NCBI GenBank assembly: GCA_947259215.1
Contig: CAMYLJ010000020.1
Span: 1 to 64,000, forward strand
DNA from: an uncultured delta proteobacterium
GTDB taxonomy: Bacteria; Myxococcota_A; UBA9160; JAFDET01
Length of the DNA: 64,000 nucleotides
Direction: 5' to 3'
Below the pieces are notes generated by a model. That model saw only the letters and a list, made by a program, of their open reading frames with translations. It ran no database searches and was not told the origin of the DNA. Positions 1 to 31,173 of the stretch are shown piece after piece (position 1 is the first letter of the stretch; the number at the start of each line of letters is the position of its first letter). The position numbers and the translations under genes are program-made.

Positions 1-436
1 GGAGTCCATCAGCGCGCTCCACTCAGTCGTCGCTCCGCGAGCCCCCGCTCCGCCCTCGACTCCGAGTCCCGGACGCCGACGCCCCCGACACCGCGCGACG
101 CAGAAAGACAAGAACTTGCCGCCCCCGGGACAGAACACGCCACCGGACCCTGCGGCCGCAAGCCCAGCGCCCCGCAGCCCGCGCGGGCCCCGGGGTGACC
201 GCCGGGCGCGCAGCGGTCTCAGCGACAGCGCCAAGCAGGCTCGGAAGTCGGCTGAAGCCGACTTCCCAGCCTTCTCTCCCCGAGGGCGAGCGAAGTCACG
301 ATAAATGAGAGCCACCGCGCTCGCGCGCGACGACGAACGCGGACGCCACGCAAGCGCGGCGCCCGGCGCCGCGCGCGCAGCGAGCCGGAGGCGAGCGAAG
401 GCCGAGCCGCCGGGCGGAGCCCGGCGAAGGCTCGAA
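1..436 (+). repeat. Dispersed GC-rich repeat, copy A (left end outside window)
   Basis: No credible gene. Positions 1-58 match 22581-22638 with only about four differences. The phrase agtcacgataaatga at 291-305 recurs at 22771-22785. Positions about 330-430 are closely similar to the reverse complement of about 20205-20315. The module is therefore modular and found in three places. It abuts the stop codon of the pal gene. A perfect 11-bp stem (243-253 with 256-266, 2-nt spacer) lies inside. The short open frames here look like composition artefacts. Confidence 0.7.
243..266. repeat. Perfect 11-bp hairpin within repeat copy A
   Basis: GGAAGTCGGCT (243-253) and its exact reverse complement (256-266) are separated by two bases. 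No T-tract follows on either strand, so it is not a standard intrinsic terminator. Confidence 0.6.
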
Positions 437-28493: not shown

Positions 28494-29435
28494 CTAGCCC
28501 GCGCGCAATCGATCGAGCGTGGCCCGGAAGTCGGCCGGGTCGTGGCTGTCGGCAACCACCTCCTGGTAGGCCAGGTGCGCGGCGTGGAGCATCTGGCGCG
28601 GAGCGCCGGAGCGGTCGTCGGGTCCGGGGCCGTAGACGGGATCGCCGGCCACCGGAGCACCGAGCCAGGCCAGCGTCGCGCGCACCTGGTGCAGGAAGCC
28701 CGTCTCGAGGTCCACCTCCACCAGGCAGGCGTCGCCCAGGCGCTCCGCCACGCGCCACTCGAGCCGGCCCGTGCGCGCGCCCGCCCCGGCGGCGGCGACG
28801 TCCGGGAAGACGCGCACCCGCGCGGGCCGGTGCTGCGTCACCACGAGACCGACCTCGGCGCGCCCCGTGTCGGGGAGCGACCCCAGCGCGATGGCGCGGT
28901 AGCGCTTGTGCACCCGGTGGCGCCGGAAGGCGTGGCGCAGCCGCCGCCAGGCGTCGTCGCGGGTGGCGAGCACCACCGCGCCGGAGGTGTCCACGTCCAG
29001 GCGGTGCACGACCCCGCTTCGCAGCCCGCCTTCGCCCACCCCGTGGATCTCCGGCGCGCGCGCCACGGCGAAGTTGAGCAGCGTGCCGGTCTCGCCTTCC
29101 TCCAGGGGATGCACCGGCACGCCGGCGGGCTTGTCGAGGACGAGCCAGCCGTCGCCCTCGGCCAGGACGGGGAACGCAGGCTCGGGCTGCGGCACGGCGT
29201 GCAGCTCGGCGCGCGGCGTGAACGGCTCCACCTCCACCCGCGCACCCGCGGAGAGGCACGCGCCCTTGTCGCCGGGACCGACCTCGCGTCCGTCCACGCG
29301 CACGCCGCCCCGGGCCAGCAGCCAGCGCACGTCGGCGCGCGACAGGCCGAGGCTCCGGGCCAGCAGCACGTCGAGGCGCGCGCCGGCGGCGTCGGCGTCC
29401 ACCTCCAGGATGCGAGCGGTGACAACGTGGGGCAC
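28494..29435 (-). CDS. RluA-family pseudouridine synthase
   Basis: 313 residues. N-terminal S4 RNA-binding domain (ARLDVLLARSLGLSRADVR). Catalytic domain with HRLDVDTSG, nucleophile Asp147, and a C-terminal HQVRATLAWLGAPVAGDPVYG. Isomerises uridine in rRNA or tRNA; the exact target (RluC/RluD-like) is not decidable. GTG start; TAGAAT (29442-29447, minus) ends 6 nt upstream, with no Shine-Dalgarno sequence. Divergent from the cimA leader. Confidence 0.92.
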   Translation of the reverse strand: MPHVVTARILEVDADAAGARLDVLLARSLGLSRADVRWLLARGGVRVDGREVGPGDKGACLSAGARVEVEPFTPRAELHAVPQPEPAFPVLAEGDGWLVLDKPAGVPVHPLEEGETGTLLNFAVARAPEIHGVGEGGLRSGVVHRLDVDTSGAVVLATRDDAWRRLRHAFRRHRVHKRYRAIALGSLPDTGRAEVGLVVTQHRPARVRVFPDVAAAGAGARTGRLEWRVAERLGDACLVEVDLETGFLHQVRATLAWLGAPVAGDPVYGPGPDDRSGAPRQMLHAAHLAYQEVVADSHDPADFRATLDRLRAG

Positions 29436-29448
29436 GCGGGCATTCTAC

Positions 29449-29476
29449 TTGACATCGAGATCCCCGCGGGTAGGAT
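29449..29476 (+). promoter_or_regulatory. Sigma-70-like promoter of the cimA leader
   Basis: Consensus TTGACA (29449-29454), a 16-nt spacer and TAGGAT (29471-29476). The predicted start of transcription falls at or next to the ATG at 29484, the first codon of the leader peptide. Confidence 0.7.
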
Positions 29477-29483
29477 GGATGCC

Positions 29484-29564
29484 ATGTCCGGCGACCACCC
29501 CCGCCTCCGCGCGCGCAGCATCGCGTCGATTATTGGCCGGGGGCCCGGGTCCGCCGGACGCTGA
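29484..29564 (+). CDS. Putative isoleucine leader peptide of cimA
   Basis: 26 codons plus TGA: MSGDHPRLRARSIASIIGRG then PGSAGR. Three Ile codons lie within five codons (ATC 29520-29522, ATT 29529-29531, ATT 29532-29534). ATT is rare in a genome this GC-rich. It starts directly at the predicted transcript start (7 nt after the -10) and is followed 25 nt later by a terminator hairpin, then by citramalate synthase, the first committed enzyme of an isoleucine pathway. This is the layout of a transcription attenuator of the ilv/leu type. Inferred; never seen as a protein. Confidence 0.6.
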   Translation: MSGDHPRLRARSIASIIGRGPGSAGR

Positions 29565-29589
29565 CGCGAAGGCACAGCGGAGTTCGGCA

Positions 29590-29620
29590 GGCCGCGGGCA
29601 ATCAGGCTCGCGGCCTTTTT
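29590..29620 (+). terminator. Intrinsic terminator (attenuator) before cimA
   Basis: Stem GGCCGCGGGC (29590-29599) with GCTCGCGGCC (29606-29615), one G-T wobble, 6-nt loop AATCAG, then TTTTT (29616-29620). The cimA ATG follows at 29635, so it must be read through for expression. A competing upstream structure (GCCG and CGCTG at 29553-29563 with CAGCG and CGGC at 29575-29588) is visible, but I could not resolve a clear antiterminator. Confidence 0.75.
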
Positions 29621-29634
29621 CGTTGGGGCGAAGC

Positions 29635-31173
29635 ATGGCGGCGCACACCGATCCGAATCGCATCCAGGTGATGGACACGACCCTGCGCGACGGGGAGCAG
29701 ACCCCGGACATCGCGTACACGCCCGAGGAGAAGCTCCAGCTGGCGCGGATCCTGCTCGGAGAGGTGAAGGTCGACCGGATCGAGATCGCCCAGGTGAAGG
29801 TGTCCGAGGGCGAGGCTGCGGCCGCGCGCCGCATCACGAGCTGGGCGCGCAAGCAGGGCTGGATCGACCGGATCGAGATCCTGGGGCTGGCCGACGGCAC
29901 CTCGTCGGTGGACTGGATCGCGAGCGCGCGCGGGAAGGTGCTGAACCTGCTGGTCAAGGGATCCGAGGCCCACTGCCGCGGCCAGCTCGGCGTCGCGCCG
30001 AAGACGCACCGAGAACGCGCGGCCGAGACGGTGGGGTACGCCCGCAAGCGGCGCATGACGGTGAACGCCTATCTCGAGGACTGGTCGAACGGCGTGCGCG
30101 ACTCCTTCGACTACGTCTTCGCCATGGTGCAGTGCCTGGCGGAGGCGGGCGTCGCGCGCATCTATCTGCCCGACACCCTCGGCATCTTCTCGCCGCCCCA
30201 GGTGCAGCGCTACGTCGAGCTCATGACCGCCACCTGGCCCGACGTGCACTTCGAGTTCCACGGTCACAACGACTACGGCCTCGCCACCGCCAACTGCCTG
30301 GTGGCCGTCGAGTCGGGAGCTCGCGGCGTGCACACGAGCGTGAACGGCCTCGGCGAACGCGCCGGCAACGCGCGCCTGGCGGAGGTGGTGGCCGCGCTGC
30401 ACGACCAGACCGGCTACCGCACCGGCGTGGACGAATCGCGCCTCGGCACGGTCTCGAGCGTGGTGGAGAGCTTCAGCGGCAAGGACATGCCCGGCAACAC
30501 GCCCATCGTGGGACGCGACGTCTTCACCCAGACCGCGGGCATCCACGCCGACGGCGACGTGAAGGGCGAGCTCTACCACAGCCGGCTCGCGCCCGAGCGC
30601 TTCGGACGCCGCCGCCGCTACGCCCTCGGCAAGCTCTCGGGCAAGGCGTCCCTGAGCCAGAACCTGAAGGACCTGGGCATCGAGCTGGCGGACACCGACC
30701 GCGACCTGGTGCTGCGGCGCATCGTCGAGCTGGGCGACAAGAAACACACCGTCGTGCCCGAGGATCTGCCCTACATCATCGCCGACGTGCTCCAGACGCC
30801 GAGCGAGCAGCGCCTGCGGGTGCACTCGTACCGGGTCAGCGTGGCCACCGGCGAGCTGCCACTGGCCGAGGTGGTGATCGCCTACCAGGGCAAGGAGGCC
30901 AAGGCGCAGGCCCAGGGCGACGGCGGCTACGACGCCTTCATGAACGCCCTGAAGAAGGCGCTGCGCGGCTTCCGGATCGCGGTGCCTCGCCTGGTGGACT
31001 ACCGCGTCCGCATCCCGCCCGGGGGGCGCACGGCGGCCCTGGTCGAGACCGTGATCTCCTGGGAGGGCGGCTTCAGGACCCTCGGGGTGGACTCGGACCA
31101 GATGGGCGCCGCCGTGATCGCAACTGAAAAAATGCTGAACCTGGTGGCGGACGGGCGCACGGCGTCCGATTGA
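29635..31173 (+). CDS. cimA: (R)-Citramalate synthase (Leptospira-type CimA)
   Basis: 512 residues. Condenses pyruvate and acetyl-CoA to (R)-citramalate, opening a threonine-independent route to isoleucine. HMGL-like TIM barrel: TTLRDGEQT, EIAQVKVSEGE, VYLEDWSNG-type segment AYLEDWSNG, FEFHGHNDYGLATAN and the metal-binding HADGD region (QTAGIHADGDVKG). The C-terminal LeuA-type regulatory domain (about 390-510) ends RIPPGGRTAALVETVISW. The pattern follows the Leptospira CimA sequence closely as I recall it, rather than LeuA or homocitrate synthase. Preceded by an apparent isoleucine attenuator, which supports the isoleucine assignment. Confidence 0.85.
   Translation: MAAHTDPNRIQVMDTTLRDGEQTPDIAYTPEEKLQLARILLGEVKVDRIEIAQVKVSEGEAAAARRITSWARKQGWIDRIEILGLADGTSSVDWIASARGKVLNLLVKGSEAHCRGQLGVAPKTHRERAAETVGYARKRRMTVNAYLEDWSNGVRDSFDYVFAMVQCLAEAGVARIYLPDTLGIFSPPQVQRYVELMTATWPDVHFEFHGHNDYGLATANCLVAVESGARGVHTSVNGLGERAGNARLAEVVAALHDQTGYRTGVDESRLGTVSSVVESFSGKDMPGNTPIVGRDVFTQTAGIHADGDVKGELYHSRLAPERFGRRRRYALGKLSGKASLSQNLKDLGIELADTDRDLVLRRIVELGDKKHTVVPEDLPYIIADVLQTPSEQRLRVHSYRVSVATGELPLAEVVIAYQGKEAKAQAQGDGGYDAFMNALKKALRGFRIAVPRLVDYRVRIPPGGRTAALVETVISWEGGFRTLGVDSDQMGAAVIATEKMLNLVADGRTASD

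Follow-up and report, generated by a model that had tools for sequence, protein, structure and literature searches.

The citramalate synthase gene cimA of this bacterium is very probably controlled by an isoleucine attenuator, in which a ribosome translating a short leader peptide senses the supply of charged tRNA-Ile. The case was computed from a promoter, a conserved leader frame, an enrichment of Ile codons and of the codon ATT, two mutually exclusive RNA folds and conservation in several families. We judge the leaders in front of cimA to be a genuine and new attenuator family, with a predicted ribosome-mediated mechanism of the known, classical kind. An earlier note on this DNA had proposed that charged tRNA-Ile controls read-through into cimA. 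As a predicted mechanism, this proposal is supported by the conserved unit and by the antiterminator that we found.

Promoter, leader frame and regulated gene

The element lies on the plus strand of the window, the 64,000-nt stretch of DNA that was analysed. It fills the gap between cimA (29635–31173) and a divergent minus-strand gene for an RluA-like pseudouridine synthase, which starts at 29435. Because the gene upstream is divergent, the terminator in this gap belongs to the leader and is not the end of an upstream plus-strand gene. The promoter (29449–29476) has the −35 hexamer TTGACA at 29449–29454, a 16-nt spacer and the −10 hexamer TAGGAT at 29471–29476. It matches the consensus at 10 of 12 positions and is the only sigma-70-type site in 29000–30200 (shuffles: 0.0). 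The leader ORF, MSGDHPRLRARSIASIIGRGPGSAGR, follows at 29484–29564 with 26 codons and TGA. Its ATG at 29484 is placed 7 nt after the −10 hexamer and coincides with the predicted transcript start (about 29482–29485). The earlier note had described this promoter and a 26-codon frame with ATC, ATT and ATT in front of cimA, and both were confirmed.

The spacing of the promoter suggests that the leader ORF is leaderless, which we consider probable. Among the 14 homologous leaders that were compared, the −10 hexamer ends 6–9 nt before the leader ATG in 13, so close that no Shine-Dalgarno site would fit into the RNA. The exception is L033, with 16–17 nt from −10 to ATG. Counted from the −10 hexamer, the leader ORF opens at the first ATG in 13 of the 14; the window leader has two more ATGs, 5 and 9 nt upstream of 29484, the 9-nt one in frame. 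A promoter scoring at least 8 of 12 and placed 5–10 nt before the ATG was found for 7 of 14 leaders, versus 0.9% of background ATGs. A good −35 hexamer is present in eight leaders, L033 among them.

The strict pattern TTGACA-15..18-TANNNT-5..9-ATG occurs three times in the whole 5.7-Mb genome, and the reversed-pattern control gave 0. The other two sites, G000:C1:13324 (L257) and G000:C17:110113 (L258), coincide exactly with the first codon of an 87-codon and a 116-codon ORF, respectively. By our reading of its sequence, the 116-codon ORF apparently encodes an ArsR-type regulator. Since both sites are at ORF starts, this promoter-ATG layout marks genuine gene starts in this genome.

Alternatively, the element could be a classical attenuator that is not leaderless, with a transcript that starts further upstream or downstream and another type of initiation. 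A AGGATGGATG stretch in the window could serve as a weak ribosome site, and L033 has space for a 10-nt 5′ UTR. We consider this reading unlikely, given the short distance from −10 to ATG in nearly all leaders, the good −35 hexamer even in L033 and the position of the two other genomic matches. Under the preferred leaderless reading, the leader peptide would be translated from the very 5′ end of the RNA. The earlier note regarded such a leader peptide as a new twist, but leaderless leader peptides have already been published for Streptomyces lividans (PMC8079986) and for Sinorhizobium meliloti trpL (PMC7298713).

The 512-aa product of cimA was assigned as a Leptospira-type citramalate synthase. 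It contains the Pfam domains HMGL-like and LeuA_dimer, the latter an allosteric domain. Its best NCBIfam match is NF042433, (R)-citramalate synthase CimA, with 633 bits, and isopropylmalate synthase models trail far behind with at most 315 bits. The best solved structure is 3ble, the citramalate synthase of L. interrogans (E=4.6e-104). Leu83, Leu106 and Tyr146 of the product align with Leu81, Leu104 and Tyr144 of 3ble, which, with this numbering, we take to form the pyruvate pocket. In the bypass route to isoleucine that does not need threonine, of which cimA is the first gene, the product is predicted to catalyse the committed step.

The NF042433 score is below the cut-off of that model (950 bits), which we guess was set for Leptospira itself, so that the regulated gene might encode another alpha-isopropylmalate-synthase-like enzyme. 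This is quite unlikely in view of the best NCBIfam and PDB matches and of the pocket residues. Furthermore, a true LeuA is encoded separately on another contig (C3:54856, 716 bits with a cut-off of 599), about 5 kb from ilvB. Control codons for Ile only also suit a citramalate synthase, and they back this call for a gene that is easily misnamed LeuA.

Control codons and alternative folds of the leader RNA

The control codons of the window leader, ATC GCG TCG ATT ATT (29520–29534), hold three Ile in five codons (codons 13, 16 and 17 of the ORF). We calculated codon statistics on 13 non-identical leaders, taking the pathway enzyme genes of the respective genomes as background. Ile accounts for 52 of 360 leader residues versus 3.5% in the background, a roughly fourfold excess (p=1e-17, a nominal value, as is that for ATT, because the common descent of the leaders means that independence is overstated). 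Leu (5.8% versus 11%) and Val (2.2% versus 10.6%) are depleted, and Thr showed no enrichment in the same comparison. Within the control stretch, 22 of 47 Ile codons (47%) are ATT versus 5.3% in the genes cimA, ilvB and leuA of this genome and its relatives (nominal p=4e-16); the description of ATT as rare here in the earlier note was correct. The distance from the last control Ile to the stop is 7–11 codons in every leader. The frame is maintained despite changes in length, as in L001, L002 and L004 (81, 84 and 78 nt).

Between the leader ORF and cimA is an intrinsic terminator with 11 pairs (29589–29616) and T5 (29616–29620), the only one in 29000–30200 (shuffles: 0.1). Its 5′ arm, region 3, is AGGCCGCGGGC at 29589–29599. 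Region 4 and the U tract occupy 29606–29620, where the 3′ arm GCTCGCGGCCT is followed by T5. The terminator and its T5 had been noted before with a stem of 10 bp, which is corrected here to 11. Across 13 sequences the helix is 96.9% paired, and 3 pairs have double-sided changes (1/500 shuffles). The T tract is weak in several homologues (GGCCTTCG...), so the efficiency of termination is uncertain there. The GGCCGCGG hairpin by itself was rejected as a diagnostic: it has 15 sites in the genome of the window versus 13 in the reversed control and is therefore uninformative.

To find the antiterminator, which the earlier note had been unable to resolve, we folded the RNA as it would be just before synthesis of region 4, with a ribosome placed at the Ile codons. 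Region 2 (29543–29563), within the leader ORF and directly 3′ of the Ile codons, then forms the 5′ strand of an antiterminator, and region 3 is common to this fold and to the terminator. In the window, 29543–29551 pairs with 29590–29599, and 29553–29559 pairs with 29582–29588. An antiterminator made of the sequence after the Ile codons and the 5′ arm of the terminator is present in all 14 predicted pre-terminator folds. The fold energy is −19 to −45 kcal/mol for a ribosome placed at the Ile codons. For a ribosome at the stop it is −1 to −6: the antiterminator pairing is gone, no stable fold remains, and the terminator can form.

For comparison, dinucleotide shuffles were made of the stretch from the Ile codons to the terminator, with region 3 kept. 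The window antiterminator has an energy of −37.8 versus −28.7 +/- 2.9 in the shuffles, and the combined energy test over the leaders gave p=3.8e-10. The number of region-3 bases that reach region 2 in MFE folds, a weaker test than energy, gave p=2e-4. In the equilibrium fold of the full leader, the finished terminator dominates and the antiterminator is hidden. It becomes visible when the RNA is truncated before region 4. The models thus indicate that the terminator usually wins at equilibrium and that the switch would need co-transcriptional folding.

The 5′ strand of the antiterminator starts 5–15 nt beyond the final Ile codon of the control stretch (24 nt in L082). In a few leaders region 2 is only 5–6 nt past this codon and inside the footprint of the stalled ribosome, so that stalling at an earlier Ile codon would be needed there. 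The untranslated RNA has a further predicted pairing: region 1, GTCCGGCG at 29486–29493, would act as an anti-antiterminator by pairing with 29552–29559 of region 2. A counterpart is predicted in L002–L004 of the same family, and in L034 and L040 different upstream pairings also keep region 3 free. These pairings would favour termination.

We propose the following mechanism. RNA polymerase would initiate on or close to the A of the leader ATG, and a ribosome would bind straight to the 5′ end of the RNA. When Ile-tRNA is plentiful, the ribosome would reach the stop and cover region 2, the 3:4 terminator would form and transcription would stop at about 29620. With Ile-tRNA in short supply, the ribosome would stall on ATC or ATT, and region 2, left free, would pair with region 3 while region 4 is still to be transcribed. 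Once the 2:3 pairing has formed, polymerase would continue into cimA. If the leader is not translated, the 1:2 pairing, in the family of the window leader and in some others, would lead to the terminator by default.

A strong GC hairpin such as this one could also be a constitutive terminator, or one tuned by a protein, Rho or a metabolite riboswitch, with the Ile-rich ORF incidental. We regard this as very unlikely. The Rfam covariance models gave no match to a known leader, riboswitch or T-box. An incidental ORF would not be expected to have Ile and ATT enriched at a constant spacing to region 2 and the stop in several families, to keep its frame through changes in length, or to be followed by an antiterminator stabler than its shuffles. 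The GPRPGSAG-like C-terminal residues recur among the leaders and the S. meliloti peptide peTrpL acts in trans (PMC7298713), yet a peptide that is itself functional, in trans or as an arrest peptide, in place of a sensor of codon supply is hardly credible here, since region 2 encodes these residues and its pairing in the RNA accounts for their recurrence, and the N-terminal half is unconserved in peptides of 23 to 54 aa. Attenuation by codon supply is thus the reading that we retain.

Distribution among relatives and relation to known attenuators

A homologue of the CimA protein was found in 97 of the 98 relatives searched, and the regions 5′ of 85 cimA genes were inspected by reading. In 14 genomes of one order, from seven family groups (f1, f2, f4, f5, f7, f10 and f11), cimA is preceded by a homologous leader. 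These leaders share the layout of −10 hexamer, ATG, Ile-rich ORF, G+C-rich stretch, stop and GGCCGCGG...CCGCGGCC hairpin. A covariance model matched one cimA leader per genome in these 14 genomes (E<1e-12). It found no other site better than about 6e-6, with the opposite strand of the leader hairpin among the next matches. The row of L082 in the alignment for this model has two surplus bases upstream of the terminator; fold and codon analyses were done without them.

In 66 of the 80 genomes of the order, nearly all of which have cimA, there is no confident match to the model, and most are clearly without the element. The earlier note had expected leader codons and terminator to be conserved where cimA is kept. 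This holds in part: in 14 genomes the Ile codons, the position of the stop, the antiterminator and the terminator have been conserved together as one unit, and many relatives with cimA lack the element, which is patchy in the order. On the CimA tree the trait is clustered and requires 9 changes. From the tree and the shared sequence features we infer one old origin and many losses.

Other arrangements were seen upstream of cimA. The attenuator-free relatives L005, L009, L010, L019, L020, L031, L046, L048 and L057 have TTGACA-16..18-nAnnnT about 42–52 nt before the cimA start, and their cimA mRNA may have a very short 5′ UTR. In L023 and L025 (genus g37) a conserved promoter, TCGACA-18-TACCCT, lies about 160 nt upstream of cimA, and behind it comes a long-range inverted repeat that ends in TTTTT. 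This region of L023 and L025 is without an Ile-rich ORF and is perhaps another kind of cimA leader control.

Genus-level group g14 (L052, L072, L076 and L078) has leaderless Ile-rich ORFs of 38–55 codons after TCGACA-17-TAAnCT upstream of cimA. Behind the ORF are two hairpins without a T tract, the second of which ends near the cimA start, and attenuation may be translational there instead of transcriptional. A tentative and rather doubtful idea is that the switch reports charged tRNA-Ile and the capacity for leaderless initiation at once, because the leader would be read only by ribosomes that accept a bare 5′ AUG and the untranslated fold (1:2 plus 3:4) would terminate. In this idea, the sister group g14 would have kept the Ile-rich leaderless ORF, exchanged the terminator for hairpins and so shifted in evolution from transcriptional attenuation to a translational form.

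The enterobacterial thr and ilvGMEDA leaders have Ile among their control codons and use 1:2, 2:3 and 3:4 pairings. The cimA leader shares the Ile control codons and this classical logic. The enterobacterial leaders differ in being led by a Shine-Dalgarno site, in their Thr+Ile or Ile+Val+Leu codons and in the genes that they control.

LeuL, IlvL and TrpL of S. lividans are leaderless leader-peptide attenuators (PMC8079986). Like the cimA leader, they have a short ORF without a 5′ UTR, control codons for the amino acid of the pathway and a terminator before the biosynthetic gene. However, IlvL lies before ilvB and combines Ile codons with Val and Leu codons, whereas the cimA leader has Ile codons only and belongs to another phylum, with no sequence relation shown. 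The trpL RNA of S. meliloti begins at the ATG of the leader ORF (PMC7298713), as predicted for cimA, and it also has a ribosome-dependent switch between antiterminator and terminator. It differs in its Trp codons, its target trpE(G) and its host, an alphaproteobacterium.

The ilvB attenuators of Mycobacterium tuberculosis and Corynebacterium (PMC13236596, PMC1262725) likewise have branched-chain codons in an upstream ORF, a ribosome footprint that masks the antiterminator and a Rho-independent terminator. Their target is ilvB, and in contrast to the Ile-only cimA leader their control codons are mixed branched-chain codons (PMC1262725). The ilvB1 leader of M. tuberculosis is 166 nt long and is not called leaderless in PMC13236596, and that paper cites mycobacterial polycysteine leaderless ORFs.

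We found no report of a cimA attenuator in the open-access papers that were searched, and an older report or one in a subscription journal is possible. Within the scope of that literature and of Rfam, an Ile-only attenuator on cimA in this Myxococcota-type group is undescribed, and the leaders are a conserved RNA family absent from Rfam. Uncultured Myxococcota-type bacteria with the citramalate route may thus tune isoleucine synthesis at its committed step. The family would also add a Gram-negative group to the few in which leaderless translation is tied to attenuation.

No matching leader was found upstream of ilvB in the genome of the window. Genome G026 has a possible leader ORF about 100 nt upstream of ilvB (L218), MFAGRIVDRVATYFRFRNLLVPAISD, whose codons include LLV and I; no terminator was evident there. 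Two Lentisphaerota sequences, L197 (CP071032) and L198 (JAAEMX010000025), have an Ile-rich 26-codon leader, MSKFKYISTLNMTVITIGISSGPFCV and ...ITIGIISGSFCA respectively, less than about 300 nt upstream of a cimA homologue. In both, a T-rich terminator that can adopt competing folds comes after the leader. Here another phylum appears to have an attenuator of unrelated origin on its cimA homologue, which suggests that the cimA step has repeatedly come under the control of tRNA-Ile.
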